Both the position numbers and the translations under genes were made by a program. The notes below the pieces were generated by a model that saw only the letters and a list, made by a program, of their open reading frames with translations, was not told the origin of the DNA and searched no databases. Below are positions 11,501-58,235 of a stretch of 64,000 nucleotides of DNA, piece after piece. Each line of letters opens with the position of its first letter. Within the stretch, counting starts at the first letter, position 1. Source of the DNA: Sclerodactyla briareus (lineage: Eukaryota; Echinodermata; Holothuroidea; Dendrochirotida; Sclerodactylidae). Where the stretch lies: NCBI GenBank assembly GCA_026419785.1, contig JAODTK010004532.1:617501-681500 (forward strand), read 5' to 3'.

Positions 11501-11504
11501 TGAT

Positions 11505-13964: not shown

Positions 13965-15250
13965 CACCCTGAACTTCAGGCTATAAGCTTCCAAGATTTA
14001 CCTGCAGCAACAGTTGGTCTATCACTGCTGGTGTCTCAAGTTAGGGGCTGTTAGCCTTCATGTGACTATACTACTGCACTTTCATGACTATACAACTCAT
14101 TAACCGGTCTATTAATGTTTCGTTGTAATTGTAATAGTCTTCCAATTTTCGTCACATCACTAAAATTGTGGTCTTTTAATTTACGTGTTACAGACAAGTA
14201 TGTTCCTTGTGAAGTATTGAAACCTTTGAAATCTTTGATTTGCCCCTTGCATGTAAGATCCCATGACCCAAATAGCAATGCATCCATCAAAACGGGACAG
14301 GTTGGTGGTCTGTGACTTCTGACAACCCATAATTGAGCCATCTCATGATGTTGATTGTTGGGTGATATTCATGGTCAATAACTTGATGATCCCATTGCTG
14401 GCATCCAAAGGGTGATTCAATTAGCTACATATATGCGGAAAAACCCTTCAGAAAAGAAGGGTAAGCATATAGACTTGTGAGAAACTTTGGTAAACATCTA
14501 TACTTGTTTCTTGATTGGATGATTTTGCCAAAAATGTAGCATTACCTTGAAAGTGGTTCTTACAGTGTTCTTGCCAAGGACTATATTTTAGTGATTTCCA
14601 ATGATTTTTATATGTATAAGTTTTGATTGCAACTATCACTAGCCCACCTAACCAGTACAAGGAGCAAGGGAATTTAGTGTTTGTTTGACACACATACTTG
14701 GGTATGCATTACAATATAAAGGAACCACAGAATTGCAGTGGTCTGAAAAATTTATAGAGATTTATTTGTAGAAAAGAAAAAATTTCAATTGAATTTGAAT
14801 GATGCAAAGGTCAGTACATTACTTACGGTAGCAGGGTGCTAGTATATTTTGTTATTTGTATTCCTTGATGAGATTCAGAGAAAAATATATGCTGTCACAA
14901 CAGGTTTTGGTGGGTGCGTCGGGTGTGAAAGTATGGCTCCGATAACGTAACTCAACCCACCGGGATAGTCAGAGCTATGACTGGATTGAGTGGTCATGAT
15001 CCTATGCTCTGGGGTCAAAGAGGTCAGTCAGAAAGAAAACCTGGTGATTAAAATTAAATCCAGAATGCTGGTCAGATTCAAGTGAAGTTGGTACGCAGTT
15101 TGTAGGGGAGTACGAACCCCTCATTTAGGTTGTGGTTTGAGGGTCATTTGTCGGAAAATTGACCATTTTGACCCCCAAGTTTTGCCTTGTGACACGCAAC
15201 CCCACCTGGATTGATCAAGCTCACACCTAGTGTGTGGGTCCCCATTGAAT
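13965..15250. repeat. Segmental duplication, copy B (uninterrupted)
   Basis: This is the partner of copy A, beginning at 'atcaccctgaacttcaggct'. It keeps the same landmark words in the same order without the 960 bp block, so it shows the pre-insertion or deleted state. No coding function was recognised in either copy. Confidence 0.7.
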
Positions 15251-16050
15251 GAGTACATAACCCTGTTGGTTTTAAACAGGATGCTTGATCAGATCAGTGT
15301 GTGCAGTTTCTTTATGTTAGTTGCAAACACCTGTTTTTTTCTTCTTTTTTTGTAGGGTGGGGGGATTGGGTTAATTTTTCAGAGAAATTGGGAAATAATT
15401 CCTAAGAATGGGAATTTTGGCCAGTCTCGGCTTGTCAACTAGCCCAAACCGGAGGATCAAGTCTACACAGTTGTGGTTTTTCTCTTTTGGCGTACAGAAT
15501 TCTTGTTCTGGGGTCTGGTCAAAAGGGCATATGAGGTCAAGCAGAGGGGCAAAAGCTGAGAGACTTGGATGCACTTGAGAAAGCCAGAAGCATGGTCAGA
15601 AGCAAGCTTGAAAATTGGTTGGCAGCTTTGGTACAGGGGGACCAGTTTGTTGCATTGCATTGGTGGTATTTGCTAAGAATTTATGTTCTCGATGGAAGAA
15701 ATTGATGATTTGTCTTGCCAATTGCAATAACTGACGGATCAAGTCCATACTTGGTTATGTGGGTTCCCCATAATGATTACATCAACATCGATTTGGGTCA
15801 GGTGACAGGTCAGCATAGGTCAACCAAAGCTGGACAATTGAGAAATAAAATTTCAGTCCTTCGTGCTGAAATTTTGTCTGCTTTTCCATGGGTAGTACTA
15901 GAAACCTCAGTGTTTGGCTGGGATATGGAGAGTTTTGGCTTTTAATTATGGTCATTGATTACCTGGAGTGGATGAAGCTTTGTACGCGGTATGTGAGTTC
16001 CCTCATAATGAGTAAATGAACTGTTTGTTTGGGGGATCAGGTCAAAGCGT
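15190..16050. repeat. Diverged tandem repeat with 'gatcaagctcacac' units
   Basis: Related phrases recur about every 250-290 bases: gatcaagctcacacctagtg (15216), gatcaagtctacacagttg (15454), gatcaagtccatacttgg (15737) and gatgaagctttgtacgcgg (15972). Most are followed by a 'gtgggt(t)ccccat' phrase and a 'ggtcaaaggtca' phrase. The end of copy B and copy A (13733) also carry a unit, so the segmental duplication lies within a larger tandem array. Confidence 0.6.
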
Positions 16051-21590: not shown

Positions 21591-22019
21591 AATGACAGAC
21601 ATTCCAAGTCACACACGCATTTGCGTGTGACTCACGCATTTTCCAGGTTTTCATTCACTACGCTCCACGCCATCGGAACTTTATCACAACCAATCACGAA
21701 AACACCTCCCAGAGTTTGGTTTATATTCTGCGAGGCTAGGCCTAACCTAAATCAGGTTAGCTTGCCCGATTAACATAGTTTGGTTTCATCTCATCCAACA
21801 TCCACTGGTAAATGATGATTACTGACCAGTTCCATACCTAGGCTAGCAATGCTAATATTAAGTGTGATTTCTTTCCCGCCGGCCACGCGGTCAGCTCGAC
21901 ACCAATAGAGTTAAACTAAACTTCAGTTGCAGTGAACTGGTAGCCACATGCCGACGTACGTATGACAGCAGACAAGTGCATTGATTTGTTGATGGATTGC
22001 CATGGGTCCTACACCTGGG
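21591..22019. other. Unassigned sequence
   Basis: Contains short palindromic words such as 'acacacgcatttgcgtgtgactcacgc', but no gene was recognised. Confidence 0.35.
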
Positions 22020-22505
22020 TGCGTTCTTTCGAACTGGTATATACCGTACATACGAGATAAAACGCGTTCTTTCGTACAAAGTGGTGACTTTAAAGTGGTG
22101 ACTTTGGGAATTCTCTGATGAACCTCCTTCCCGATTTTATATCAACATGTGCGACGCATTCGAACTCCTCAATTCAGAAATCGCGAGTCATTCCGAAATG
22201 TTCCATTTATGAATAGGTAATTCATGTGAATATAACTTTATAATGAGAAGTTAGGACGGACCTGAATTCTGCAATGAATGATAAATATCATACGTAGGAG
22301 CGATTTCAGTCAATTATGCAGCGTCGCACGTCGGAAAGCGAGGACTTTTCGCGTAACCACACTACTCTGTGCATTGCAATGAGACGGTGGAGTTTCGTCA
22401 TGGCGCTGAACAACAGCCAGCTGTAATGGAAAAGTGTTGGGGTCGAAAGCATTTTACCAGTTGGGAACTCGTATGTTTCGGTATATACGAGTTCGAAAGG
22501 ACGCA
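22020..22505. mobile_element. Inverted-repeat element with TGCGTTCTTTCGAACT ends
   Basis: The first 27 bases (TGCGTTCTTTCGAACTGGTA... to 22046) match the reverse complement of the last 26 or so (22480-22505, ...GAGTTCGAAAGGACGCA) with about three mismatches. The interior holds no transposase, so this is a MITE-like non-autonomous element. A shorter relative lies at 23399-23547. Confidence 0.7.
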
Positions 22506-23398
22506 GCAACAGTTGCAAGATTTGTTCCATTCATCAAATACTCAACTAAACTCTATTTGGGTCCCCTCTGTTTACGTGTTTTATTCAATGTTTTTTTTTT
22601 ATGTTTTTTTTTAGTCAAACCAGCATGACTGGTTGTGAGCTTTGTGATCCACCATTCATTCTATTACTAATTCCTGTGTGTCCACAATGGACTTTTGGGT
22701 TCCCCACGATTGCCTTTTAGGCTGCCAATTGATCATCTTGATTGATTTGGAACAAAATTTGAACAATGATTTATCATTGACCACTAGGACATTTCTGACC
22801 TTGTGAAGTTAAGGTCAAAGTCATTGAAGCATTCACAATTGGCCATTTGTTCACCCCTACAAATGTATCTTCTCCTACAAAAGCATTAGATGCTTGAAAC
22901 GCAGTCAAATGTTCATTGGGTGGGTAGCGATCTTTCAGATTGTACACCAGATTTTAGATGGAAGGTAATAGCATGCCATGGAGTTAAAACAGTAAACATC
23001 TGGTGGAAAGAAAATATCATGGGCCTCTAAACAGTAATGCTTGATGAATGTGGACCGAACTTGGAAACAAAGTCATGAAAAAAAAAACCCCCCCATGGGA
23101 ATAACTTGACCTTGTGAAGGTCAAGGTTCAAAAGTTATTAAAGAGGAATAAGGGGCTATTTTGTTTAAATCTACAAAATGCATTTTTGATATGAAGAGGA
23201 TGGGGACTGTTCTCAATTCTTTCTAATGTTTTCTCAAAAAAGTGCTTCTTAATGACATGTTCACAAAATTACATGTCCATGTTATCTGAGGTAGTTTAAG
23301 GTGGATTCCATGGAAAAGTTGACATAGTACCATGATCCTTTTACATTTCTCCCTAACAATCGGAGACTGACCTCGCAATCTAGCCTGTTACTGTATGC
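22506..23398. repeat. Tandem repeat with 'gaccttgtgaag(t/g)' units
   Basis: Two diverged units about 310 bases apart carry 'ctgaccttgtgaagttaagg' (22797) and 'cttgaccttgtgaaggtcaa' (23106), followed by 'gtcattgaag' or 'gttattaaag' and by a 'tacaaatg(t/c)a' phrase. Unit ends were not defined. No coding sequence was seen. Confidence 0.5.
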
Positions 23399-23547
23399 TG
23401 CGTTCTTTCAGACCTCGTATATCCGGATATACAGGTAGGCGGACCAAAAAACAGAGGAGGATTGTTAGTGCTCACTAACCTTGGAAGCACTTACGGTTTG
23501 TATTCACTCTCTGGTAATTACCAAAGTTACAACTTCGAGAGAACGCA
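23399..23547. mobile_element. Short inverted-repeat element, relative of 22020-22505
   Basis: It starts TGCGTTCTTTCAGACCTCGTA and ends with TTCGAGAGAACGCA, the inverse of the start over about 14 bases with mismatches. At 149 bases it is a deletion derivative of the same family. A TACG microsatellite follows at once. Confidence 0.55.
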
Positions 23548-23567
23548 CCATACTTGTCATGCAATAC

Positions 23568-23592
23568 CGACGTACGTACGTACGTACGTAAA
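23568..23592. repeat. ACGT microsatellite
   Basis: About five tandem ACGT units (cgacgtacgtacgtacgtac). A single 'cgacgtacgtatg' also occurs at 21952 near the left end of the larger related element. Confidence 0.85.
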
Positions 23593-24921
23593 CGGCCGGT
23601 GTGCGAGCGATTTTCGCGCAGCCAGTAGTCACTCGAATGACCCTTGATATTTCCGTTCCACGCAATAATCATGGATGAATACTCCTTCGAAATAGTGTGA
23701 TGTGTAGTACAGAGATGAATAAATAAAAGATAATTATATTAATATTAATAATTTCATGGAAAGATCGGAGCAAGTAGAGAGCAAGAGATTCTTGAAACCA
23801 AGGATTTTGGAGCACAATTTGTAGCGAAGTTTTGAGGCAGAGGGTTTCGTACTTCGTAGCATTGAAGGTGTAAGCCTATTATAAGTTAAGTACTAGGCCT
23901 AAGTATTACGTTACACAGCAAGTCAAAGTAGCCTACGATAACGTTAGAATCTGCGAGCTGAAAACATTCGAAAATCATCAAGTAATGAAACAGGCATGTA
24001 GATGGGTTGATCAAACACATTTCACAAAAAGATAGAATTCATGTTATTTGCAAGGTGTATTCAGCTATTTCACTTTTTGATCTAGGCCAGGGTGGTCCCT
24101 GTACAAAATCCATAGCAAGTAAGTAGCTGAGGCCTTCTGCTCGCTACCTTGTGTAAGTTGTGGAATTAATAGAGCCATTGGAAAATTACCAGTTTTATTT
24201 TCTCATTAATTCACTCAAAATACAAATTTGCCTGGAAAGACATTCACTATGGCCCGAATAATGTTGCCGTTGAGGGATTCGCCCTTTCGGCGGAACAGTG
24301 TCACGTAGGATGGGATGGAAGCCGAACAGTTATGGCATGGAAGTAGCATTGCCCCGTGGGCATGTACCCACGGTTTCAGTGTACTGTGTTCGAAAGTCGT
24401 GTTTGCCAATGACTCCATTGAGGTCAGGGAGCAAACTGGGCTAAGAAGGAGGCTTTTGAGATTGGATTAAGGGTGGGGTCAGGGATTAGGAGTGGAGTGT
24501 GAAGGGTACGGTAGTTTAGATGTTAGAACACAGATGTGTGATGACATCTGCCAATTGGAATCTGACTCTACTCCCTATGGCTCTATCCCTGACAACTGTG
24601 GGAACACAATTTAATACATCCAAGTACACATGAGGACACATTACAGTATGCAAATCATGCCCGTTTTTGTTTCCGCCTGAACTGCAAACTTGTTAGCAGG
24701 ATTTCTCTGAAAAGGTGTGATGCCAATTCTGACGGAATTTTGTATGTAGTATCAGGGTTGGTGGAACACAACTGACTAGGCTGTGGGCGCAAAACGCACT
24801 ATAAAGGAGGGTATATTGGCCTATTCATCATATTCATTTTCTTAAGCTCGTTAGCAAGATTACAGATGAACTGTAACTGCTATGGAGACTGGTTTGGCAC
24901 ATAGGTGAAGTGAGGTCGATG
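23593..24921. other. Unassigned sequence left of the DIRS element
   Basis: Nothing recognisable was found. It forms the left flank of the GC-rich element, and base composition rises sharply after about 24970. Confidence 0.4.
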
Positions 24922-24930
24922 AACTTACTT

Positions 24931-25120
24931 CAGGGCACTTACCTTCTGGACCACACAAATTGCAATTTTCGCCAAACGGCCGCTTCGCGTCAAACCACAC
25001 CCCTATACAACTAAAAAGTTGTTAAGCACGCGACGGGACGAACGCAGCCGTAACGAGAGGGTGTGCGGCAAGGCAAACGGTGCTGTACTATCAGTTTTTC
25101 GGTGGTGTGCCACCAACAGC
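24931..25120 (+). repeat. Left inverted terminal repeat of the DIRS element
   Basis: Landmarks 'gggcacttaccttctgg', 'ccaaacggccgcttc', 'gttaagcac', 'cgcagccgtaac' and 'gctgtactatca' appear here in this order. Their reverse complements appear in the opposite order at 33357-33526. Identity is interrupted by small indels. Confidence 0.85.
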
Positions 25121-26352
25121 AACACACGGCTACTGTTTTCTCATCGCTGCTTCCATTGGGGCTTCTCACGCCACTTTCTGCCACTTTTCCAAACCATTAT
25201 TCAGGAATATAATTCCTTTTGGGGTTGTGGGTGTATTTTCTGTTTTTAATTCACTCATTCCTGCCATTATTGGGATCGTAACGTTCGTTTTAGCGCGGCC
25301 AGTGCGGTCTTGTGTGTTTGCACATGGTCTTGGTGTGGGCCCGACCGCTTCTTCCGTGGGACTGGGGTTTTTTCTGCCCTCCCTCCCCGCCAGGGCTAGG
25401 TGCGTTTTTCTCCCGCTATCTTGTTACGGGCGTTTGACCATTTGGGCTCTGTCCCCCATATGGGCTCCGGGAGGGGGTATTTTTTCCCACAGTTAGTAGC
25501 GGGGGTTTTCACCCTCCTTCGCCTATCGATAGCTTTGCACTAGGACTTTTTCACATGTGGGCTATGGGGTTTTCGTCCGTTGGACTTGTGTTGTGTTTTT
25601 TCCCGTTAGTCGGTGTGGATAGGCCCACAGGCGCGCAGAGCGCTTGGCTCTCAGGCCGTTGCCTAATTGCATATCAATAGGGACATCCTCACGTTCCTTT
25701 TTTCGCATTCGCTACGGATTGCCTGGGTGGTGCCATTATTATGTTGTGGTCTGTTAGTCAATGTTATCATGTCACGTTCACAGCATATGTCGCCCGCTTA
25801 TGCTGGATATAGATGGGATAGGGGCAAAAATTTTCTTTTCACGTCATGACCTGTAGCCATTTTGTACGCTGCAGATGAGCCATCTTTTCGAGCGGTGTTG
25901 ACGTCACCGCCAAGTAGCTTTGGCGGCCATTCTTTAGTTTTCACCCGTCGGGGGCTGTCCCCCCCCATGGTGCTGCGCGTAGACCCAGGGGTTTGGGTGA
26001 TTTGGGGTCCCCCCTTAAGGGGCCCCTCTGACCGGTTCTTGCTTTCAACCCACCATCCCTCGGTAAGGGGGGGGGTGGGCCTTACCGTTTCGTTGCAAAT
26101 TTTCACGTTTGCCTTATATCTCGTAAACAGTAAACCCTAGGGGGTCCAAAGTTGCAACTTTAACTTTTAGAGTAGGGCTGCCGGCAGAGGGTCATTGTTG
26201 GACCCCTCGGGCGGGCTCTCCGGGTCCTTGACCTATTCGAGTATTACATTGTCTATGTAGAGTAACTTAGTTTGGAGTACATTACCTGATTTACTAAATC
26301 TGCGTTTCGTTTGCTTTTTTAAAGATCTGTAAGACGAAGAGCATTACTTACA
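25121..26352 (+). other. DIRS leader before the gag-like region
   Basis: About 1.2 kb between the left repeat and the first likely start codon. A 138-codon open frame (25080-25496) overlaps the repeat, but no other reading supports it as a gene. The leader probably carries the element's promoter, though no specific signal was identified. Confidence 0.45.
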
Positions 26353-28690
26353 ATGTCCTCGAGCCAGCGCACTCCCGCAAGCATCAGAGGTCCTCCCGTT
26401 TTTTACTGCGGCGTCGGCGCTCCTTGCGCTCAAAACCCACGCTTGGGGGGATCCCTCCGGCGTCCCCCCGTTGCTACGCGCGTCGGGCCATTGCGCAGTC
26501 CTTCTTCTCCTCCCGCTGGATCCCTTGTTGGGTCCGCAGTAAGGGGGGAATGAGGCCCTGCGTGGGGCCGAGTCTTCGGTGGGACGGGTCTCTCGTTGGA
26601 GGGCCACGGGCTTAATACCTCGTCACCACCGGGTACTTTCAGGGACCATTGCGATCCCTCTGGGCACCTCGGTGTCTAGTCCCCCCTCCCTTCTCCCTCC
26701 ACCTCAGGCGACAGGATGCGTCGGACGGGTTGGGGGAATGAGGTCCCTGTGGAGACCGCTTGTTTTAGAGACGACTATGTCGGCGATTTGGCGTCCCACT
26801 TTCCGTCGTCCATGTCCCTAACCGGGTTAGGGCAGGCCTTCCGCGTGTCGGGTTCCGGCCCAGCACCCCCCCCCCACAGGACCAGTTGGCTATGCCTGGG
26901 GGTGGCACGACCCCTGCGCGGGGGGCGCAGGGGGGGGCAAAAGGAACGTTCCCCAGTGGGGGACGGGTTCCTTGGGAGCTCCCACAGCCATATGTTTAGG
27001 GCGTTTCTCCCGAATCGTTCGGGTCCGTCAGGCCCTGCGTAACGTGTTCAGGGGACGGCCGTCCCCAGGGGCATGTCGGTGACGTTGTCACTGTTCGTGC
27101 GCCCCCACCAGTTGGGATCCACGTCGGGTCCGTCTGTAGGCACCGTCATGGGCGCACGCCGGGAGTTTTTGGGGGCGCTGCCCCGTGGGCTGCAGCCCAA
27201 ACAAACCTCGCGAAGGTTCTCCGCTTGGGTCTATTCGGGGGAAGGCCCATCCCCCTCTGGCGATGCTGAGAACCTCGGTCAGAGACCTCGGGGACGGGTC
27301 GGCGTTTGTTGTCCTCCGATCCCGCCCCAGACGGCAAGGCCCGTCTGTGCGACGGGGAGGGGAAAACGGGGTCCCCCACTTGCAGTAGTCCCGGATTGCT
27401 TCAGGCGGGCAATTAGCTTCCACGTTGGAGGCTCTTCAGTCCCTGCTGGGGGGGGGAAACGGCGGGTGTTGGCTCAAGGGTTGGCACGCCCGGAGTTGAC
27501 GAGCCTCTCCGCCCGGGGACCGGGGGTTCGATGTCCACATCCCCTCCTCCGACAAACACCGGACACTCTCAGCGAGCCGGGATGGTTTTCCAGTGTCGTT
27601 GTTCCTCACCGTAAAAGTCATACGCCTGGATGTTGATCAGGCGACGGAGGCCGCCGAGGGAGACAGACGTCGATCTCCCCCGCGGTCCTTCGAACCGAGA
27701 GAAGGACGTGCACGCATGCGACCGTTGGTCAGGGTCCGACGGCTCCGTCCTCGCCGCGAATCTTCATGCCCCCTACGTTTGAGGGGGGCCTTCGGGCCAG
27801 GAGTTCCTTCAGCGAAGGAAGACGAGCCACCGTTACGAGCCGCGTTGAGGAAGACTACGCTGCGGCGGTGACGGAAATGCGACGGGCTTTCTCCCTGGAC
27901 TTGTTCGAAGACCCAGAAGCGGCGACGGAGGGGATCCGACAGGCTGGGCACGTTTGGACCAGCGCCGGGCTACGCCTCCGCCCGCTCCCACCCTCCCTAT
28001 GCGGCGGACGGGTGGTTCAAGATTTCCCAGGATAGGGCCAGGACGTCCCCGTCGAGCGTCCCACAGCCGGAGGACCGCCTCATTCGAGTTCCACAGGCAC
28101 AGTACGATGCCATTCTCCGTTCCACTCCCCTGCCGCCGGAGGCGTGGGGACAGGCGGTCATGTCGGGGAGGGCGTCGGATTCTCCCGGCCCAAGAGGGGG
28201 GGAAGGCCCTCACCTCCGTCTGAAGGATCGACCCCAGGCGGAACGAGACGCCGATCTCCGGTTTTTTTTTTTTTTTTTGACCCGTTGGCAGCGAGATTCG
28301 GTACAAGTATCGGCTCTACAGCTTTCTTAGCGGAAGAGTGGTTCGCCAAGGTGGCGCCGTCGGCGGACCCTCACTGCGGAGGTGATGGCGAGAGTCCGGT
28401 CGGCGGTTACTAGACTGGCCTGAGATCAGTTTGCAGCATTGCGTCAAGGAAACGTCTGTGCGGCGGAGATGTGTCCTGCGGACTTGAACCTCTCTAGCTT
28501 GCCGAGGGGTGCGAACTCCAGAGCGCCCTTATTTGGGCCCCGACCTCCTCGGAGCCTGTTTTCCCCGAGTCCTGGAACAGGACCCGCTTCCCGGGTGGAG
28601 AAGTACCAGAAGACGGAGGAACGTGTCGTCGGGCGGGGGGTGCCCCCACTCCCCCGTAGCAGAAGGGGGAAACCCGGCTAAGCGTCCCGG
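26353..28690 (+). pseudogene. Gag-like ORF1 region of the DIRS element
   Basis: This is the region between the leader and the reverse transcriptase, where DIRS elements code for Gag. An ATG at 26353 opens MSSSQRTPASIRG. Later pieces are Arg/Pro/Ser-rich and then acidic with a charged helix-like stretch (EEDYAAAVTEMRRAFSLDLF near 27850-27905). No zinc knuckle was seen, which is normal for DIRS Gag. The piece boundaries and frames shift repeatedly, so neither its start nor its product can be fixed. The call rests mainly on position. Confidence 0.45.
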
Positions 28691-28959
28691 CAAGCCCAGG
28701 CGGGGGGGAGTTAATTCTCCCGCGTGGCAGAGGGAGGCGTGGTTGTGTTTTGCCTCCCGGCCCGCCCGGGGGGTAGGTTGATAACGGCACCCTGTCCCGG
28801 GAACCACCCAGGCGGACCCCCACCTGGGGGGGGTCGTCTCCGACTTCGCGGGGGCGTGGCCCTCTCTCACCTCGAGACAGGGGGGTGTGGATCCTGGCCA
28901 CGCTCTCACAGGGGTATGCCTGGAGTTCACGGCGCCTCCCCCGAGCTCCGGGGCGATTG

Positions 28960-29740
28960 CGGGTACACCGGTCCTGCGGGACCGCTCCCAGGCGTCGTTG
29001 TTGGAGAGGGAGATCGAAACCCGTTGGCCAAGGGGGCCAGTTACTCCCTCCCCCGCGGGGAGGCCACGGTTTGTGGCTGTCCTTTTGTCATGACGCCCAA
29101 GAGGGACGGCTCGTGGCGGTCGATATTGAATCTGCATCCTCTCAACTGTTTCGTCCGCCCACCCCCCTTCGCACATGGAAACCACTGCAGTTGATTTTCA
29201 AACACTGCGGAGGGGTCTCTGGGCCGACGTCGCGTGGACCTACTAGCACGATGACATACTTGCATATCCCCGTCAGCGGGGGGAATTCTTCTTCCTATGC
29301 TTCCGTTACCGACGCTTCCTCCACACGATTACCAGTCTCCCTGTTTTGGGTTGTCGAGGCGACCCCGTGTGTTTACACGGGTCAAGAGGGCCATGGTGGC
29401 CATTTGCGTCCGTCAGGGGGTCCAGATAGTCACTTATCTGGACGACTCGGCTTAGTCCTGGGGGACTAAGCGGCGGAGGTTCAGAGGAGCATCCGCACGG
29501 TTCTGGACTTGGCTCGGACAAGCGTGGGATGGCTCGTCAACTTTGACAGTCAGACCTGCGCCCGTCCACCTCAATACCAGCGGATGGTATCTGGGTGCGC
29601 AGATCGATCTAGCGGTAGGGGTGGCCACCCCCAACCCTGGAGACTGGAGGCCATGAAAGACAGGTTGTCGGATGATTCAGGCAGAAACTCTCCTTGCCGC
29701 GGGGCAGTTGGCTGGTGATCCTCAGCTTTAATGGCGAGAC
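28960..29740 (+). pseudogene. DIRS reverse transcriptase
   Basis: Blocks follow in order across frames. LLEREIE is at about 28999, MTPKRDGSW and ILNLHPLNCFVRPPP at 29090-29165 (fingers), and YLHIPVSGG at about 29260, which is the block that holds the first catalytic Asp in the related frame upstream. A piece reading HTITSLP is at 29325. VTYLDDS at 29429-29449 is the YxDD catalytic motif. GWYLGAQIDLAVGVATPNPG comes from about 29583 on and matches the DIRS thumb pattern. The order and wording match DIRS rather than LTR elements. At least four frame changes and stops prevent a full protein. Confidence 0.8.
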
Positions 29741-29929
29741 TAGCTGGACCGGTACCTATTGGCCGGATGTACATTCGCCCACGGCCAGATCACCTATTTG
29801 GCCGTTTTTTCGTCAGTCGTCTAGGGAGCTGTCGCGCCAGTGCCTTCGTGGCAGCCACACCGGGACCCGATATCCGGTGGTGGGGCTTGAACAGGGACAA
29901 CGTCATGCAGGGGTTAGGTCCCGCCTCCG

Positions 29930-30270
29930 TCCAAGCTTTTTGATTTTTCATCTTATTCCCAATGTCGGGAAGCCTAGCTGGAGGCGCTCCTGGGGGGCTC
30001 CCGCCTACTCAGGAGCGCGTTGGTTCACGTGTCTCTCCGGGCTCGAGTCGGGCGATCCCCAACATAAAAATGTGCTCGAGTTGTGGCGCGTGTTCTCGCG
30101 CTTCCTCCCGGAAAACTTACTGCAACCGCCGAGTGGCGGGCCGCCTTAGTAATGGTCCGTGCGGACAGTACACGCGCGGCTTTTTGTCGTATAAAACCGG
30201 CAGGGCGGGACGCGTTCGCGGAGGTCTGGTCCGTGCACCTGGACCTGTTTTCAGTGGTGCCGCGCGCACG
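29930..30270 (+). pseudogene. DIRS RNase H domain
   Basis: The frame with KNVLELWRVFSRFLPEN (about 30065-30120) fits the RNase H helix that follows its first strands. VRADSTRAAFCRIKPAGRD (from about 30149) with an overlapping-frame RQGGTRSRR fits the D-N/S-T-x-A-A ... N-H-Q-G-G-T-R-S segment characteristic of DIRS RNase H. A one-base shift lies within this segment. The domain removes RNA from the RNA-DNA hybrid during replication of intact elements. Confidence 0.7.
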
Positions 30271-30580
30271 GAGTGAGTGCCCCGCCTTAGGCGGGTCACC
30301 TTCCGGGTCCGAGAAATCTCGCCAGGAGACGCGGTCTCGCGCATCACTCAGGCCCCGACGGAGTGGTCTCTCCATGTCGGAGTTGTGCGGAGGCGTTGTT
30401 CTGAGGCGTTTCAAATTCGTCCGGAGGTGGACCTGTCGCATCGGCCTTCAACGCAAAGCTGCCCTCTTCTGCACACGAGTCACTACGTAGAGGGGGCCTG
30501 GGCGGTCGCTGCTATGGCCCTGGATTGGCATTTATCGCAGGCGGAAGACTTCCCGACGTGTCGCATTCTCGTATAGTCGA
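30271..30580 (+). pseudogene. DIRS methyltransferase-like region after RNase H
   Basis: The pattern PEVDL...STQSCPLL followed by GAWAVAAMALDWHLSQAEDF matches the segment that follows RNase H in DIRS elements and is often described as Dam methyltransferase-like. Whether it has enzymatic activity even in intact elements is not established from sequence alone. Several shifts are present here too. Confidence 0.5.
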
Positions 30581-31059
30581 CAGGGGGTCGAGAGGGTTTG
30601 GCAGGGAGCCCGTGTCGGGCCTCAGTAGCGCGTTTTGGCACAAAGCGTGGTGCCGGCCCAAGAATGGTTTGCTGGGGGGGGCCGACGGATTCGACATTGA
30701 ATAACGGAAATACTGGTGCTTACGGGTTGGGAAGCGCAACCGCACCCAGGGATTGCGCCTGGTTGAGTGACCATGGTAAGGGGTTCCATGAGAGTAGGGC
30801 ATTTCGGAGGAGGATTGAGGATGGAGGGGGGTGGAGAGTTACCTAGCATGTGGATTGGATCGGATTGTCGGGGGGATGGGGGTGAGTTTTGGAGGTTGTG
30901 GGGCGGTGGGATTTCCTTTATTGTTGTTAGGGGGCCGTGCCCGTGGGGTCCGTCGGGTGGGTCTTCGGGCTGGGGGCTCCGGGTTTGGCCGATGCTCTTT
31001 GTGCTGTTTGGTGTTTGCCGTTCGTTGTTTTGGTTTTTTGTGGTCTCGCGAGCACTTAC

Positions 31060-32160
31060 TACGCCCGCTTTGTCTCCCTCCCTCCCGTCCTTGGATTTTT
31101 CCTCCGCTTTTTCCTCTTTCCTGTCTCCCTCTTTCTTTGCGTCCTTTCTTCTTGCTTTCTTCCTCTGTCCCACTGTTTACGCTACCCATTCCCGACCGAC
31201 CTTTAGCCCTGTTCCTTTCTCCTCGCTTTCTTCTCTTTCGACACCTCGCTACTGTCCCTTTTGTTTTTAACTTTCTCTTCTTTTTTTCGCTTTCTTTTTG
31301 CTGCTCTCCCCGTTCCTTGTGCCACCGTTCTGGGTCCCCCTTTCTTTCTCTTCCCTCACACCTCCCTCACCACCCCTATTTTTTCGCGCACCCTGACACG
31401 CTTCTCCCCTTCTTGGCCGAGACCCCGCCGCTTTTCGCCATCTTTCACCCCCTCCGCCGCGACGCCGCGCACGCCGTTACCCTACTTTGGACCCTCTCGT
31501 TCCTCACTCGGCTCCGGGCCACCCCGCCCCCCCCTCCCTCCTCTCCCCTCCGACCCCGCCAGGCCCACCGCGACGACCACCCACCACCCGTACGAGAGTT
31601 ACACCAGCGCACCGCCTCCCCCGCCCCCTACCGACTCGAGCAACCCACCTCACCCCTCCCCCCACTGTAGACCTTCGTGTCCACTTTACACCATACCACC
31701 ACTCAAACACTTCCCCCTCTACACAGCGCTCCAAAGACCGCCACTCCCATCTTCGCGGGCACGTAGTGGCTATGTCGGGGCGCCACCGGGGGCGGCGTTG
31801 GCCCAACCCCCTCGCACCCCCCCCCCCTCTCTCACGCCTGACTTCCACAGCCTCACCCCCCCCCGTGGGGGCTAGTCCCGGCCGTTTCCTTCACCACCAC
31901 CCCCTCTTCGATCCCTTTCCTCAACAGCCGCTCTTTACCTGTGTGCAAGAGCGGGACCAAACTCACAACCTAGCACTTTCCGCCCCCCCTTTCGTCACCC
32001 CCCACACACTACGTCACGAATAGCCCCACTTCCCGAACCAACCGATTAGCATTCCCACGATAATACACTCATCTACATTTCAGCGGAACTACACCCCTCA
32101 ATTACACAAAACAATCTCACGACTCTCTCCACCCCCCCCCCCCCAATTGCTCAACGTCAC
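31060..32160 (+). repeat. About 1.1 kb pyrimidine-rich tract inside the DIRS element
   Basis: The + strand is overwhelmingly C and T through this stretch: T/C mixtures at 31080-31400, then C-dominated to 32160. This gives long open frames of Pro, Ser, Leu and Phe in more than one frame (one spans 30831-31670). The composition, not coding selection, explains those frames. It sits where DIRS elements usually go from the methyltransferase-like region to the recombinase, and it is longer than needed. Confidence 0.7.
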
Positions 32161-32389
32161 GAAACCACTGAATTACTTTGGGACACCAAACCACCCAATA
32201 AACCATGATAACACCAACTTTTGAAGACACCGACCAAGCATAAGCAAAGAAAAAGTAACATATAGAACATTTAGGATAGAAACAATGCAGACCAAAAAAC
32301 ACGAACCCATTTTATATTATATTCAAAACGCCCTACCGTACCTCAACTGCAGCAGTTGTCAGTTAGACGGCGTCCTTCTTTGCGGCGGC

Positions 32390-32906
32390 ATCGGATCGGC
32401 GCCGTCCAGTCGTAGTAGTGCCTTGAATGCTTTGTCTACCCTCCCGGCCCATATGCGTTTTGAGCCTCACGCGGGGGTCCGCCCTGGTCCGGACCCGCGT
32501 TGCTCCTAAAAGCGTCGGTCCAACTTTTTTACTCCCGGCTCCGATTTCATATCGCTGCTATTGGGGAGTTATCGGGAGTGGAGGGGGATGAGTGTGGTTG
32601 CCGGTTCGGGCCCTTCGGGTTTACCTGGATCGGACCCGTCCCCTCAGTGGTCCGTGTAGTCGCTGTTTGTTATGCGCCAGCGCCTCTTACACGCGCATCC
32701 AAGGATACATCTCTCGCTGGATCGTACATGTGCGATCCGGGCGGACCCGGGGGGTGGTCCGTCTCGACCGCGAGCTCACGATGTGCGGGGGTCGCCTCCT
32801 CCCTTGTGCTCTATAAAGGTGTGCCTTTGAGGAGATTTTCCAGGCTGCGGGATGGAATCGAGAATACCTTTATCGCTTCATACGTTCGGGACCCCCTGCG
32901 GAGCTA
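32390..32906 (+). pseudogene. DIRS tyrosine recombinase (C-terminal half)
   Basis: Pieces such as GYISRWIV (about 32707-32730) precede the catalytic part. AHDVRG at 32774-32791 is the H-x-x-R box. The next frame continues VASSLVLYKGVP, another gives EEIFQAAGWN, and ENTFIASYVRD at 32860-32891 contains the nucleophilic Tyr. H, R and Y of the R-H-R-Y tetrad are therefore visible; the first Arg was not located with confidence. Three one-base shifts in about 110 bases separate these blocks, the first in a G run. In intact elements this enzyme inserts the circular DNA copy. Confidence 0.75.
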
Positions 32907-33228
32907 ATCCCGCATGGCCACCGCCTTCCCTCCCGCGCGGGGGGTTGCGGTTCGGGTTCGTTCCGCGTATGGCGGTTGGCCCTCTTAGGTAAGAGTCGGC
33001 TTTGCGCCCCTCCCCCTTCCCCACCCGCCGGCCCGCTCGGTGGGGGGTTGTGTTGGGCTGTGGCTGGGTCGGGGACATCCTGCCTGTGACGGGAGGGTGC
33101 CCCGCTTGGATGTCTGAGTCTGGTGACTACGGAGAAGGCGGGTACTCAGACGTCTTTTTCGGTGAGTGGTTCTGATTATAGTTGGATTAATTCGCCTCCC
33201 GGCTTCCACATCTTGCGTGGGAGTATGC

Positions 33229-33324
33229 AATTTGTAGTTAAGTCCAGAAGGCAAGTGCCCTGAAGTAAGTTAACACCCCTTCGTTAAGGGGGGCTAAATA
33301 CGAGGGGAAACTTACCTTCTGGAC
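33229..33324 (+). repeat. Internal complementary region of the DIRS element
   Basis: The left part (33229-33271, with 'gcaagtgccctgaagtaagtt') is the reverse complement of the element's left edge (24922-24960). The right part (33272-33324, 'ccccttcgttaagggg...cttaccttctgg') is the reverse complement of the right edge (33510-33562). The join at 33270-33273 (gttaac) marks where the two ends meet. In DIRS biology this region is thought to serve as template to complete the ends and form a circle. Confidence 0.85.
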
Positions 33325-33356
33325 ACCCGGCCGTCCTCCCCACTAAGCGGGAACCG

Positions 33357-33526
33357 TGGGTGCTAGTTGGAATGATAGTACAGCAACCCGTTGCACGCAC
33401 CCAGCTTAGTTACGGCTGCGTCCGGCTTACGGCGCTGTGCTTAACTATTTTTAGTGGTAGAGGGTGTGTTGAAGCGGCCGTTTGGCCCGGAAAATGCCAT
33501 TGTAGTAAGTCAGAAGGTAAGTGCCC
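33357..33526 (+). repeat. Right inverted terminal repeat of the DIRS element
   Basis: Its reverse complement aligns with 24931-25120, with shared words 'gatagtacagc', 'gttacggctgcg', 'gtgcttaac', 'gaagcggccgtttgg' and 'cagaaggtaagtgccc'. Confidence 0.85.
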
Positions 33527-33562
33527 CTCGTAAGAAAGCCCCCTTAACGAAGGGGGGGGTTT

Positions 33563-34371
33563 GTTAAACGGATAGATACAGCGCTACAAAATGCTAGATA
33601 AAGCTGTCTAATGTGCATAATTATGTGAAAATTTCAAGGTTTGTAAGATTTACCTCAAACTTGACAGTGAATATCGTCTAAATCCAGTCCCGAAAATTTT
33701 TAACAGAGATTTTCAGGGTCAATGGATCATTCAATGTGTCTATTTTGCGACATTGATGCCAAATCATTGAAGTTGGTGGATTTTATTTTATGAAACCTGG
33801 TGGGTAGCTTTACATCAGTTCAAATTTTCATTCATGGCTCTGGGTCACTGGAAACGGTAATTCAAAGTACGTTCTAATTTGCATAATTTTATGCGTAATG
33901 CTAAAAGTTTGCCGACGATTCCCATTGAAACTTTGTAGATATGACTTATCCTTACCTTCCAAAATATTTGGATGAGACTGGAAGTTGTTCAGTTAGGCTA
34001 ATGTTGAATAGTCAAAGCTTGAGCGTTATGATCTACCTTCAGTTCCAATTTTTGTTTTACATTGACTCGGTAGTGGGGTTTTCATGTGTGTATAGTGTGC
34101 TTCATTCATGTAATGTTCAAGTTGGTAAGAATACCAGGAAATGTGTAGGAGTGTGGTCTACATTGGTCCTGACATATATTTTTAAATGAGAAAAGGGCAA
34201 TGAAAGTTGAATATGCGTCTAATTTGCATGAGTCAGACAATTTCCGTTATTATTTCCAAAAACGGTGTACTCCTTGACGTAGACATGGTCAACCAGTTCA
34301 GTGAATTTGAAATTGTTTCCAACTGGTTATAAGCTTGGTCCTATAAAATGCTTAATACAAAAATTGGAGCA
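33563..34371. repeat. Dispersed repeat related to 20986-21590
   Basis: See the partner at 20986-21590. It includes words such as 'ctaatttgcataattttatg', shared with other TGACC/ATGCAAATTAG-type repeats. No coding function was seen. Confidence 0.55.
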
Positions 34372-35921: not shown

Positions 35922-37066
35922 ACAGTAAAACTCTTAATACTCCTCTCTCAAAATTTTGGTTGGCATCACAACAACATAGTTGAGCTTGATACAATCAATG
36001 TAGGTTTCCTTATATGTTTCGGCATAGATTCATTTCTGCTCCGTTCATTTTTTCCGGTACAATGTACTATAAGCAAACACTCTGGTAGGAATACAGTGCC
36101 TACTGCCGTGTTCGCCATTTCTAATGAATGTATAAGGTAGTTCGCTCTGTAAAGATTACATGTGGACATCCTTATGGCCCTGCCTGCCCTGACGGATAAC
36201 CAATAGGGAGATATCATTTTTAAAATACAAGGACGCTACTAGCAGCAGTTTGGTAAACATTACTGGCCTAGTTAAAACGAAAGCAAGGAAAGAACTCGGT
36301 CATGTATACGATCAGGAAATATCAGTATGAGTGTGTTTATGCACAGAACATGGATAAGTTCATGTGAAAGTTATACAGAGACACCAATGCAACCAAGCCA
36401 CGCAAATTGTGAATAACACACCATGGTAACCAAGGCGAAAACATTTTGTTGACTCCTTGCTACAAAGGCTGCAGGGTCAGTGGAAAGGCTGTGTAAGTTT
36501 TCATTGGCAACTCTTCTGCAAGATTGTGTCTCATTTTTAGCTTTTCCGAACCCAACAATATAGATATTTGAATTGGCTTGAAATACTTTTATTATCATTT
36601 GCAAGTACTTTTCCAGATTTTATCCCAGTATTAGGCATTTTTTCAAAATCTGATATTGTGAGAATGGATAACTTTGTATTTTTAACCATTTTTGGGAGGG
36701 CATTTTCTTTACGATAATCTTTATACATTCTCGCATTAACTTGTTTCATGGTCCTTCCCTTAGAAATTATATCGGTCTTCTGTAGTATGTTTGACTTCAG
36801 AATAAATTGCTAAACAACTCATGCACGTTGAGTGAGCCAGAGGGACAAGAGGGGAATTGTAAGAGATCGGGGTTTAGAGAGTCCCTATGCCTCCATTCTA
36901 CCTAAAAAATTCCGGCCTGGTCGGCAGCCCATAAGAGTGACCTGTTAAGGGGGGGTCTAGTGGTTTCACCACTATTTTTGGGTGGGCATGCATGGGGAAG
37001 TGCACGGGAACCACTGACTAGACGTGCGGTCGAAGTTAAACACGCTCCGACTGAACAGCACAAACC
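35922..37066. other. Unassigned sequence
   Basis: No recognisable gene or repeat. The short open frames lack family patterns. Confidence 0.35.
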
Positions 37067-38101
37067 CATGGGCGTCAAAGGTGGGGACGGGGGGGGGGAC
37101 ATGTCCCCACCCCAATTTCAAAAGGGGGGGGGGGGGATAGAATACGTTGGTTCCACACCCCCAATTGTCCGGACCGTAATAAAAAATAATAGGCACATGC
37201 CCGATTTTTGTGTATCACTGCTAAACGGTCTAACCAAAAAATAATCGCGTTGGAAATTGCCTGAAGTCCATTTTTTTTTTAAATTTTTTTTTCCCCCAGG
37301 ATGCGGAACCCAGGTCGAGATCTGGACCCGATAGGCCGAAGTGGAAGATACCCGGTTTAATTACCGAGTTATCGAATTTTTTTAATCGAATAGCCAAAAG
37401 TGCATAATTTTTCAAAGGTTTCGCGCGCAATGGCGTTTTTCTTCCAGGCGTTGTAGGATAAATATGCGATGAATGCTTCGAATCATTGTTCAACTCGATT
37501 AATTTTCAGAAGCCTTGGGCAGACTGCCTCCCATTTTTTCTTTCTGAGATGAGGAGTCGGGCGAAAATAGTGGAAAATTTGGGAAGGAAAAGGGAAAAAA
37601 AGCAAGTGAAAAAATGCCTGGAATTTTTTGCAGACCTTTTCCGATAAATGCCGGGAACATGCAATTTTTTCGCGCGCTCCGTGTGCGCCGGTAGTTTCAA
37701 ATGAGGTGCTTGTGAAATTCCGGTACAAATTTTCTGCTCCCAAATTGAGTGGTCTCGGACGCCTATGGCTTTTCCCTTCGATCCACCAGAGAACGTTTGG
37801 TAGACCACTGGATCCCAGAAAAAAAGCCCAGAGTAAAAAAGGGTAATTAAAAAATATCAGGGTGATAATCGGGAAATCATCTCAGTATGCACAATGACAA
37901 CTCTTTTGGCTGTCTTTTACTAAAATCACACATGTACAGATGGGTTCTATTGAGCCGGCAAGTGCGTTTCCGCGATCGGAGGGTATTATGAAATTTGAAA
38001 ATTTCTTTGTACGTTACGCGCCAACCAGTGATGGTGCTCCGCTTAGATGGTCATTGCGTTCGGAGGTGTCTCTTCACTTTTCGAAACGCTCCACGCCCCT
38101 G
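37067..38101 (+). mobile_element. CATGGGCGTC inverted-repeat element, long copy 1
   Basis: Starts CATGGGCGTCAAAGGTGGGG with a G/C core, runs through 'aataatcgcgttggaaattg', 'gatctggaccc', 'cagaagccttggg', 'catgcaattttttcgcgcgc', 'cttcgatccaccagag' and 'cgctccgcttagatggtcatt' phrases, and ends 'cgaaacgctccacgcccctg', the degraded inverse of the start. The same phrases in the same order occur at 39996-40988 and 47390-48231, and reversed at 49930-50519. No transposase open frame was found in any copy, so it is non-autonomous. The superfamily is not identified. Confidence 0.75.
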
Positions 38102-38380
38102 CAAAACCAAGTGGGCTGTCGCAGTCCCCTACTCTCGAGGGGAGGGGGGGGGGGGACCAATTCTAATCTGTTCCTTCGAACTTTAAAATTAAATATAGAA
38201 AGGTATGTTATTTCCAGGTATTTAAGACCCCCTCTATCCATGCAATTCCCCCTTGATGCCCCCCTCTTCAATGTTTTTGACTCAATTGCAGGAGTCCACG
38301 GGGAAATAGAGAACCAATGGTTCAAAGCTCAAACCGGACAAATTGTCAATATGTAGTGAACTGTTATAATGTGTTATTGG
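38102..38380. other. Unassigned sequence
   Basis: Flank of the element above, with nothing recognised. Confidence 0.4.
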
Positions 38381-39895
38381 AGTTATGCTTTGATTTCAGT
38401 TATATTGACCTTTGATGGCAGTGCTGAAATGAGCATCTGAAGATAAACTCATTTGTGAGAGGAGATACATAAGTTTTTCACACGTTGGCCATTAGGCTCC
38501 CTCAATGAAAACTTTGACCTGACCTTTGAGTGGCCAATGGTTACCCAGCAGCCAATGGAATATTATGTACAAGTATTGTCAATGTTAATCAGAGAATTAT
38601 CATTTGAGGGCCAAAAACATTGCGAATTACATATTATTCCACCAATTTGAACAAAATTGCCTAGTCCTCTTTTCCAATGGCTTTACACCTACAATTCCTG
38701 TGGGACCCATAAGTCTACTAGTCAATTATTATACTGTCCAAATATCATGGCAATATGACCTCCTAATCTGCAAAAGTACTGTTTTGCAGTTTTCACATCA
38801 TGCCCATTGGGCCTTTTAATTGCCATTTAACCTTGACCTTTAGGTGGTCAATGGTGACCCATTGAGTCAATAAACATTTCTGACCAAGTGTGTCAAGACC
38901 CATCAAAGCATGAGTTTTAAGGGCCAAAAAAATGCAATTTGCAGATTATTCCACCAAATTGAACAATTGCCTACTACCCCCACATGGTGGGCACCAGGGC
39001 CCACATTGGGCCATGGGTCCTAAATCACTGACACTCTGAAGTTATGGCCATCAGGCTAGCATAGTAGGACTGAACAGCAGCCTGTGCAACAGAATTTGTT
39101 GGAGGATACAAGATTGGCGTATTTAATATCATGGGCCCTAGAGCCCAAAGTGGGCCCTAGGCCCAACATTCCCAAAACACCCCCAATGGCCCTCTACCCA
39201 AGGACCATAACATAAACTTTGAAAAAAATAATTGAAGCTTGTGGAAAAGAGATGATTTCAAGGACAATGTGTGAAATTTAATACCCAAGTGGACCTGAAC
39301 CAAAAAATCCTGAACAACCCATGGTACAGCTTTCAAACCATCAGACCGAGTGTCAGCTCTAGCACAAAATCTATAGGAAGATAAAGATTCTGCGGGTATC
39401 TCATATAATGGGCCCTAGAGCCAGAGTGGGCCCCAGGCCCCAATTTTTCCTGAACACCCCCAATGGCCCTCTATCCAAGGACTATCACATGTAACTTGAA
39501 GAGAAAATCGATGAAGTACCATCAAGTTCCAGTGCGTTGAAATTTTCATGACATCGAGGGCCCAAGTGAGACCTGGGAATTAAAAGTTAAAAACAACCTT
39601 GAATGAAACGGCGTTCTCTCTTGTTAGACCATCAATATGACGAACATCAGCATTGTGCACCAAAATTTGTAGAGAAGTAGGATTTGCAGTTTCCCACTTA
39701 TTTTCCCATTGTCCCCTTTAATGTATTTGACCTTGACCTTCAGGGGCCAACAATGACCAATCAGTCAATGAACATTGTGACCAAGTCTGGTTGAGAGTCA
39801 TAGGGCATTGAAGAATTTGCGGCCAAAATCCAAAAAGTTTAAGACTGGTGATACAGAGAAGGATAGACAGAATGACATGGCCCATCACCATAGCC
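38381..39895. repeat. Tandem repeat array with 'ttgacctttgag' and 'gggccctagagccc' units
   Basis: Related phrases recur: 'gacctgacctttgagtggccaatgg' (38517), 'aaccttgacctttaggtggtcaatgg' (38829) and 'ttgaccttgaccttcaggggccaac' (39727). 'gggccctagag...' followed by 'cacccccaatggccctct' occurs at about 39134 and again about 277 bases later at 39411. The units are diverged and of unequal length. The array ends next to an inverted-repeat element at 39996. Confidence 0.65.
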
Positions 39896-39995
39896 TCAAC
39901 CAAGTATTAGATATAATTAGGAGGATAAACGTTTTGGGTTCTTCCGCTAAATGCCGAAAATTTACTCCTACATGACCTTTTTTGCGATCACGTCC

Positions 39996-40988
39996 CATGG
40001 GCGTCAACAGGTGGGGGACGGGGGGGGGGGAACATGTCCCCCCCCCTTTCAAAAGGGGGGGGGATATAATTCGTTGTGTCCCACCCCCCCACGTTTCCGG
40101 AACGTAATGAAAAAAATAGGCACAGCCGATTTTGTTATCCACTCTAAACGGATTCAATTTTGTTAACCAAAACAATAATCGCGTTGGAAAGTGTCCTTAA
40201 GTCCACTAATTCCAGGTGCGGACCCCAGGGGTGAAGATCTGGACCGACTCTAGGGCCCCAAAGTGGAAGGATTACCAGTGTTCATAAGAGTTTGAAGTTT
40301 AAATCCAATAGCCAAAAGGCATGATCTTCAAGGGGTTTTTTTCGCGTTTGTTCCAGGGTTGTAGGCTAAATATGCGATTGTAATGCTACGAATAATTCAT
40401 CACTCGCATTAATTCAGGAAGCCTTGGGGGGCAGAAGGCCCCCCCCCCCCCCAAGTTTTTCCGAGATGAACACTTCGTGGACAAATCCGGGAAGGAAAAA
40501 AAAGGCAAAAAGTGAAAAAAATGCCTGATTTTTGCAGACTTTTTCGATAAACTGCCCGGGAAACATGCAATTTTTTTCGCGCGCCTTCGCGGCGCGCCGG
40601 TAGTTTCCAACGACTGACTTCGGGTAAATTTCGGGCTCCGGCCGTACGCCTATGGCCTTTCACTTCGATCCCACCAGAGGACCTTCGGTGGTAAACCCCT
40701 AGATCTCACGCAACAAAGCAAGCAGAGTAGAAAAGGTATAAAAATCCAGTGTGAAACTCGGTTAAATCATATTAGATGCACAATGACAACTTTGTCTGTC
40801 TTTTACTCAAACACATGTAGATGGGGGCTTTGAGACCGTAAGTGCCGGTTTCCTGATCTGGACGAGTGTAGAAAAAATTGGACTTTTTCGTGGTGCGCTC
40901 CTCGCCAACGATGGTGGCGCTCCGCTCTAGATGGTCATTTGCATTCGATGTGTCCCTCCCAATTTTCGAAACGCTACGAACGCCATTG
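39996..40988 (+). mobile_element. CATGGGCGTC inverted-repeat element, long copy 2
   Basis: Starts CATGGGCGTCAACAGGTGGG and ends 'cgaaacgctacgaacgccattg'. It carries the same ordered phrases as copy 1, including 'aataatcgcgttggaaagtg', 'cagactttttcgataaactgcc' and 'gatcccaccagagg'. The two copies differ mostly by small indels. Confidence 0.75.
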
Positions 40989-41261: not shown

Positions 41262-42760
41262 TTACTGTCGCTTTGTCACACGTGTCTTGTATGGGGTTGT
41301 GGCATTGTCAGTATTGCTGTAGTACATCTTGTCGAGATGGTTCATTGACCTTTCACCTTCCCCAAGTAACATGGTGTAGCAGCGCGTAAAGAACGGAACA
41401 TCTAACGGGCCGACACCGGAAACCAATACAACGCCGGCGGCCGAGCCCGAAAATGCCATCATCGAGTCTACCTTATCGACGTCAAGTTTTGTCCCGTCCT
41501 TTGAGAGGAATCTTTCTGGTTTGAAGTCTTCCGGATCTTCGAACTGATCAGGGTCAGAGATACACGGATACAGATTTAACGAGAAACTATCGTGTCGTGG
41601 GGTCTGAAGCAGTCGTATCCTACCGCAGAACCGTTGTCCTTAGTAGTGCTATGCGGCGGGGCTCAGAACAATACATGCATGTCGAGCTACCTCGACAAGA
41701 ACGACTCTACTAATGGGGCTTCCCTCTGTCCATGAAGACGGCAGCCGATCTCGCCCGACGACCTCATCGATTTCTTCTCGTATAGTGTCTGCCCTAGGGA
41801 TGTGCTATCGCGTAGAGGAACACCCACTCAAGGATCCCAGAGAGGACGGTTTCGATTCCCGAAGGAGAACAGGTCGGCGGTCCTACGGTCGAATGGTACC
41901 TTAGATGATCCGTGTTTCTCCCTCTCTTTGTTTGAATCGAGGTTCATCAATGAGCGTAATGAGCGGTAATAGACGATATCACTGTCGGAACCTACTGTAG
42001 TTATTTGCAGTCATGAAGATGGACCGCCGCCAAATATATTCCGGAGTCTCCCGTGGATATCTTACTTAACGCTTGCAGCTACCGGAAGGAGTAGTGAGAG
42101 CCCTAACTTCCCAGCCACGGCCAGAAGGTCAATCATACGACCCCGTGATGGCTTCGAGAATTTCTCTCGCTCCTCGACGACAGCTTCGAGGTTCTTGTAG
42201 TCCAGATCATGTGAATCAGAAACAGAAGAAAGAGTAGGTTCGCCATAACATTGCTAACCGCCGCCTTGAGCAGCTTGGCCGGGTAATCGACTAAGGGCGC
42301 AGGTCGTCTTCTCGACAGTATAACCTGATCAACTCCGGACACCTCGAAATCTCACCATTCGTTCCGCCCGACACCCATGACTCCCAGAGTGAATAACGCA
42401 AAGCCATAGATCAGCTTACGCTCTAGCTTCCAACTTTCGCTGTAAACTGCTGAATGCGACGGACCCCGAAGACTGGAACTGTAGTAACCGAGGGGGATTC
42501 CAACACTGGTCGACCTGCAAAGTTCACGGATTGCTTGAACAGAGCTTGCTGAAATGGCGCCCTCCGTTCAAGACGACGACCCTTGCGATGCCGTCCTCAT
42601 TTGGGGGAAAAACGTCTGCCGATTTCTTCGCCAGTCCAACAAACGATTGGAAGGGATTCCCACCAAGCTCGAGCTGACTACCGATTATAGGAAGTCCGAA
42701 GGACGGTACAGGGCGGGGTACCGGGGACGCCACTCGATAAAATATGAACAGGGCTGTGGT
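41262..42760 (-). pseudogene. Cytochrome P450, single block, frame broken
   Basis: Read from high to low coordinates on the - strand, ordered P450 motifs appear. They are the proline-rich N-terminal hinge and GLPIIGSQLELGGNPFQSF (about 42690-42630), then VVVLNGG, then FAGRP (near 42500), and SESWKLERKLIYGF with the C-helix W-x-x-x-R (near 42440). REEIDEVVGRDRLP (about 41780) precedes the ExxR motif EVAR (about 41680-41695). The PERF motif in DFKPERFLS is near 41515, and FGLGRRRCIG with the haem-ligating Cys is near 41420-41450, in a different frame from PERF. The C-terminus PYKTRVTKRQ ends at a stop at 41262. The fold is a microsomal CYP, closest in wording to the CYP2 clan (CYP1/CYP2/CYP17-like), a monooxygenase needing a reductase. 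No intron is needed. Several one-base shifts break the frame. The membrane anchor and start were not fixed. Confidence 0.8.
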
Positions 42761-43440
42761 TGTGTAAGGAAGTCACCGCCACTCTTACAGACAAGGAAAG
42801 AAAGCAGAAACCACTAGCACTACAGTAGGGGTGGAGGGAAAAGTTCTGCCCCAATAACGATGTCGAGAAATAACAATTTCTCTGAAAATATCCTCCATAA
42901 TAAGAAGGAATCAAATCAATTTGGCCTATTTCACGCCGCTTATTCTTTTTAAAATGTTCACTAGTTGCCGATCCAAAGGAAATATTAGCGCGCGCAGTGG
43001 AAGAGGCAGATCGTACCAAACATGATACCTGGTAGGCCCGTTTATAGCAATTAAGCATGTAGTGTGATCGCAGTATATTCAGCAGAGTGAATCGGGAAAA
43101 CTGAGGGTGCCTATTTGTTGTTATTGTTTATTTATGCGGGTGCAAACAATATTTGCAAACAGTTTTGATCGATGCAGCCGCCGGAGCTATTCAATCTATA
43201 GTGACCTGGTTTTCGGCGGTGAACGATTTCTTTTGCAATTAAAACTATTAACTACAGAGGGGGTCGCACGACGTAACTCCGCAGAACTTAGGCATGCAGA
43301 CGCTGATAGACATTTGGGAAGAACAACGGGAATATTTCCTTGACGAAGCCAAAAGGGAATGATGCAGTCTGGGGCTTGTGCGTATGTGGTGGGACTGTGT
43401 CTGTGTATGAGTTTGTGTGACACCCCTTGTCGCCGATATC
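42761..43440. other. Upstream region of the P450
   Basis: The missing N-terminal membrane anchor should be encoded in the first bases of this stretch on the - strand, but no clear hydrophobic run was found. The rest is unassigned. Confidence 0.35.

Positions 43441-58197: not shown

Positions 58198-58235
<38 letters not shown>

Follow-up and report, generated by a model that had tools for sequence, protein, structure and literature searches.

Is the G+C-rich island within a 64,000-nucleotide stretch of Sclerodactyla briareus DNA (assembly GCA_026419785.1, contig JAODTK010004532.1, positions 617,501 to 681,500 of the forward strand; this whole stretch is the window referred to below) a DIRS-type retrotransposon, and how should its broken reading frames be read? 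The island is distinct from its flanks because its base composition differs: the G+C fraction of 1-kb bins is 0.52-0.65 in 25001-33000 and 0.37-0.50 outside 25001-34000. We assign the element at 24922-33565 (8.64 kb, plus strand) to the DIRS1-like retrotransposons of the GTT type, at a probability of roughly 0.93. Inverted repeats, an internal complementary region (ICR) and signals of reverse transcriptase (RT) and recombinase support this assignment over PAT or Ngaro elements. The copy is new; the kind, a known and uncommon mobile element, is not. No Rfam match reached the gathering score, and scans of viral contigs, prokaryote genomes and phages yielded no DIRS relatives, as expected for a eukaryotic element.

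DIRS1-like elements are defined by inverted terminal repeats (ITRs) and two ICRs that overlap at a 3-base circular junction (PMC3266345). A first-pass annotation of the window had described inverted repeats of over 150 bases at the ends of the island. Local alignment of 24924-25138 with the reverse complement of 33345-33538 gave a score of 160 (161 of 231 columns identical), with none of 200 shuffles exceeding 45, and the repeats were found to be about 170 bases long each. The same pairing was recovered by blastn (24933-25093 with 33526-33373, 72.5% over 167 columns, E 9e-14). The annotation had also allowed that the repeats might turn out to be direct, and this was not borne out, the direct score of 37 lying below its shuffle maximum of 51. 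Comparison of the window with itself by blastn revealed three pairs inside the element, all of them inverted and none direct. These results bear on the idea that a PAT-like or Ngaro-like element has been mistaken for a DIRS1-like one. Both groups belong to the same order and carry a tyrosine recombinase (PMC3266345), and an RT is common to them and the element as well. However, PAT and Ngaro elements have split direct repeats, whereas the terminal repeats here align only when inverted and are accompanied by an ICR of the DIRS1 kind, with no direct arrangement found in this copy. Such a misassignment is therefore very improbable.

The second structural claim, an internal region matching both outer edges with its halves meeting at GTTAAC, also stood. 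Alignment of the left edge with the ICR's left part (33226-33282) scored 71 (shuffle maximum 43), and that of the right edge (33511-33567) with the right half (33270-33321) scored 65 (shuffle maximum 35). The remaining two blastn pairs connect the same regions: 24922-24964 with 33271-33226 and 33276-33321 with 33555-33511. Within the left half, a 30-base core (33242-33271) matches the left edge in reverse complement at 97% identity. The halves, about 46 and about 52 bases long, are joined at GTTAAC (33269-33274), in which AAC is complementary to the terminal GTT. The match between the ITRs stops at 33538 and the right terminus GTT lies at 33563-33565, leaving 27 bases as a right extension (rE). 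The only match of this segment is to the right ICR half, as described for DIRS1-like elements, in which the right extension matches the right ICR only (PMC3266345).

This geometry, far above shuffled sequence, comes close to that of GaDIRS1, which is entered in Table 3 of PMC3266345 with GTT ends, an AAC junction, an ITR of 19+148 bases, an rE of 27 bases and an ICR of 46-56 bases. The AAC junction and the rE of 27 bases are common to the present element, GaDIRS1, TnDIRS1a and SkoDIRS2, and the ITRs of these three are 157-167 bases long, compared with about 170 bases here. The right-end GTT is found in GaDIRS1 and SkoDIRS2 as well, whereas TnDIRS1a ends in GAT. Both ICR halves are similar in size to the 46-56 bases of GaDIRS1. 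Likewise shared with the AAC-junction DIRS1-like elements are a YLDD motif and a recombinase whose catalytic part lies at the 3' end. In contrast to GaDIRS1, TnDIRS1a and SkoDIRS2 (5.3-6.3 kb), the element is 8.64 kb long, its left GTT is not intact, its frames are broken, and it contains a leader and a composition-biased tract. Its recombinase reads HDVR where HSTR is usual in DIRS1-like elements; the HSTR motif is called variable, being kept in 13 of the 28 elements of Table 3 (PMC3266345).

The first-pass annotation had named RT (YLDD), RNase H and tyrosine recombinase blocks inside the element. For the RT, both strands of the 64 kb were scanned by frameshift-tolerant DNA-protein alignment using 140 RT residues from PDB entry 4ol8, a reverse transcriptase/ribonuclease H that we take to be the Ty3 enzyme. 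The top place in the window was 29072-29508 on the plus strand, with a score of 133; the runner-up anywhere scored 99. When the element was shuffled 30 times in 50-base blocks and searched on one strand with this first penalty set, the highest score was 113, and none of the 30 equalled that of the RT. Three stiffer penalty sets gave 88, 70 and 99, the second-ranked place reaching 58, 52 and 62, and these top scores were equalled by 0, 1 and 0 of 100 shuffled elements each. The top place at 29072-29508 includes YLDD at 29435-29446 (plus strand). RNase H and the places resembling LGFLIN (here VGWLVN) and DLFAS were recognised by eye only, the motif names being those of PMC2685390.

The recombinase was located with a pattern that ignores frames: H..R, then G[WH] with 20-26 residues from R to W/H, then [TS]F..(.)Y 7-11 residues on. 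It rests on the general spacing of tyrosine-recombinase motifs. The pattern had a single match on both strands of the 64 kb (32777-32883), at the expected place in the element, and none in 200 shuffled elements.

Several observations weigh against the assignment. The recombinase pattern was set only after the sequence had been seen, and a PDB search with the recombinase region returned only protein A repeats, nothing useful. Under the stiffest penalty set the alignment to the RT breaks off at 29380, short of YLDD, and a single shuffled element matches its score. The raw RT frame, with stops as X, found 4ol8 as the best of 177,635 PDB sequences at an E of just 1.1, and the frames joined by eye found the same RT/RNase H entry at E 0.36, so that the PDB match is weak; the other two frames of this region found nothing in PDB, and a lipoprotein match to one RT piece was set aside as chance. 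Pfam recognised no RT, RNase H or recombinase, neither in raw frames with X at stops (E up to 1) nor in stop-free pieces, shorter raw frames and two read-throughs (E up to 10). The lack of an RT or recombinase profile match, named in the annotation as an outcome that would tell against its claim, was thus formally found in Pfam, while the frameshift-tolerant comparison does find an RT. The likely reason for the missing Pfam matches is that the frames are broken by indels, since three-frame translations show conserved-looking stretches that hop between frames. Furthermore, the left-end GTT is not intact, with GAAC in place of the expected GTTAAC; start and end trinucleotides are unequal in several elements of Table 3 (PMC3266345). 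Finally, the 8.64 kb of the element exceed every one of the 28 elements of that table, whose lengths run from 3974 to 6283 bp.

Ty3/Gypsy long terminal repeat (LTR) retrotransposons possess a related RT, as the best PDB match to 4ol8 indicates. The element differs from them in its tyrosine-recombinase pattern, in the lack of direct terminal repeats in the comparisons made here, and in having no Pfam integrase match in raw frames. The raw frames had no Pfam match in the presumed gag region either, and none to a methyltransferase, whose expected place overlaps the composition-biased tract. Coordinates are collected in Table 1.

Table 1. Features of the DIRS1-like element, numbered from the first base of the window
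Feature	Position	Strand	Basis
Left inverted terminal repeat (lITR)	24922..25095	+	Local alignment with reverse complement of right end; blastn
Untranslated-looking leader before first plausible gag start (ATG 26353)	25096..26352	+	Inference
Presumed gag region, G+C-rich, frames broken	26353..28980	+	Position only; inference
RT core (PKRDGSWR ... FGL ... YLDD)	29072..29508	+	Frameshift-tolerant alignment with 4ol8 RT; PDB search
Presumed rest of RT and RNase H	29509..30690	+	By eye: VGWLVN ~29524, DLFAS-like ~30427
Tract of drifting composition, no tandem repeat	30780..32330	.	Base composition, entropy
Tyrosine recombinase catalytic part	32390..32890	+	HDVR 32777, GW 32850, TFIASY 32866, three different frames
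ICR left half, reverse complement of left edge	33226..33271	+	Local alignment; blastn
GTTAAC circular junction	33269..33274	+	Sequence; compared with AAC-junction elements of Table 3, PMC3266345
ICR right half, reverse complement of right edge	33270..33321	+	Local alignment; blastn
Right inverted terminal repeat (rITR)	33371..33538	+	Local alignment; blastn
Right extension (rE), 27 bases, GTT-terminated	33539..33565	+	Local alignment; lengths compared with Table 3, PMC3266345

The element contains the inverted repeats, an ICR matching both edges, an RT core and a recombinase catalytic pattern; it would presumably also have carried RNase H, gag and methyltransferase regions and followed the life cycle of its family. 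In the published family model, an RNA copy of the element would be reverse transcribed by its own RT/RNase H. The ends would then meet on the ICR to form a circle that has one junction, which the tyrosine recombinase may recombine with a matching 3-base genomic site; this would leave no target-site duplication.

Why, then, are the frames broken? The RT alignment contains four frame changes in 437 bases, and the recombinase pattern passes through three frames within 107 bases. The annotation had called the frames broken. Whether such breaks amount to decay is doubtful, because an excess of indels is seen between repeat copies across the window, host copies included. Indel:substitution ratios were fitted with a pair hidden Markov model (pair-HMM). 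Between the two ITRs the maximum-likelihood ratio was 2.03, and the log-likelihood fell by 10.6 when the ratio was fixed at 0.15. Twenty-one host repeat pairs were fitted in the same way; two collapsed and were dropped (11501/13948 and 40143/47377, which had given 0.94 and 0.55 in an earlier, coarser fit), and one was trimmed (37065/39994). The 19 usable pairs had ratios of 0.00-2.14 with a median of 0.57, four of them above 1. In 30 simulations with natural-like ratios, assumed from general knowledge, the values were 0.02-0.27, and 17 of the 19 host pairs exceeded the highest of these. Hence, the indel excess is common to the element and the host repeats, with the element near the top. The notion that errors are confined to the element alone was not borne out by this host repeat control.

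Read most plainly, the frame changes are errors at the base level in an assembly of noisy long reads. We consider it probable that the dense frame changes are base-level (indel) assembly errors, or errors together with decay, rather than the outcome of simple ageing. Natural decay, in which mutations that followed insertion disrupted the frames of a DIRS1-like copy whose sequence is accurate, is the less likely account, and we regard it as rather unlikely. It would fit with the host copies being indel-rich too, since the host itself might mutate in this way; the host may have an unusual spectrum of indels, and this also counts against the error explanation. The same holds for simple counts between the ITRs, which vary with the gap penalty: 13 mismatches with 21 gaps under one setting and, when gaps are dear, an ordinary-looking 31 mismatches with 9 gaps. 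Against natural decay stand the ITR ratio with its loss of likelihood and the persistence of motifs in alternating frames. In addition, the nine 1-kb bins of 25001-34000 have observed/expected (o/e) CpG ratios of 0.76-1.06, although depletion (0.30-0.68) is seen in 18 of 24 bins across 1-24000, and the element therefore bears no sign of CpG ageing. However, the two bins of 22001-24000, the nearest full ones to the left of the element, are also undepleted (0.92), so that CpG content speaks only moderately against a long period of ageing.

Host coding sequence in the window was examined with Pfam in 149 of the 160 stop-free stretches of at least 75 residues. Four families appeared at E <=0.01. 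Only one match, to a cytochrome P450 exon on the minus strand (41262-41636), was convincing, at E 1e-7; the others, at 0.003 to 0.01, were not. In this exon, a stretch resembling the heme motif lies in another frame than the remainder, which would fit either a pseudogene or errors at the base level. For assembly errors, a related, though not identical, case is described in PMC9516821, in which false indels occur in G+C-rich regions of older Sanger- or Illumina-based assemblies.

A tract of biased composition separates the part that holds RT and RNase H from the recombinase. The first-pass annotation had proposed a pyrimidine tract of 1.1 kb. A biased tract is indeed present, at about 30780-32330, yet it is not pyrimidine throughout: it starts G/T-rich and ends A/C-rich, base use moving from G through G/T, C/T, C and C/A to A. 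Its mean 100-base entropy is the lowest of the window (1.734; the 525 windows taken outside the element all reach 1.893 or more), and no tandem repeats were found in it at the score limit used. Memoryless noise was considered as a description of the tract; it looked flat in a narrower test, and block shuffles rejected memorylessness, with AC and TT in excess. Some host stretches (e.g. 42001-43500 and 51001-52500) also looked structureless in the block-shuffle work. The tract may be either an artefact or a low-complexity insert.

The leader and tract had also been proposed as marks of a distinct subfamily. Such a reading would take as real both the 1.2 kb leader and a strand-asymmetric, pyrimidine-rich spacer of 1.5 kb between RNase H and recombinase, with a recombinase of the HDVR type kept in a long DIRS1-like lineage of this host. 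A length beyond all 28 annotated elements (PMC3266345) would suit such a lineage, as would a tract that is not memoryless noise. However, only a single copy is at hand and the tract is compositionally abnormal, with its extreme entropy and lack of tandem repeats. The subfamily is thus unsupported as a reading of these features, and we regard it as improbable.

Elsewhere in the window, the CpG o/e of the right part (40001-64000) is 0.81-1.19 in 20 of 24 bins, in contrast to the depleted left part, as mosaic DNA methylation would give. A host repeat family is present in several copies at 37065-40975, 47377-48199 and 49940-50517, with about 69-77% identity and many indels. Diverged direct duplicates of 0.15-0.8 kb and 73-75% identity occupy 11501-15251. 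A run of 37 T is found at 58199-58235 and a C-rich run of 57 bases at 59044-59100.

The indel-rich repeat copies across the contig call for caution before broken frames are called decay ahead of a check against the reads, and the same caution applies to taking a tract of odd composition as a subfamily mark in such a contig. DIRS elements had been described as sparse in most animal genomes. This is true of copy number, which is low in most of the 30 species in which the survey of 274 genomes found such elements; with more than 4000 copies, however, the elements are called widely distributed there (PMC3266345). To this record the S. briareus element adds one more structurally whole DIRS1-like copy.

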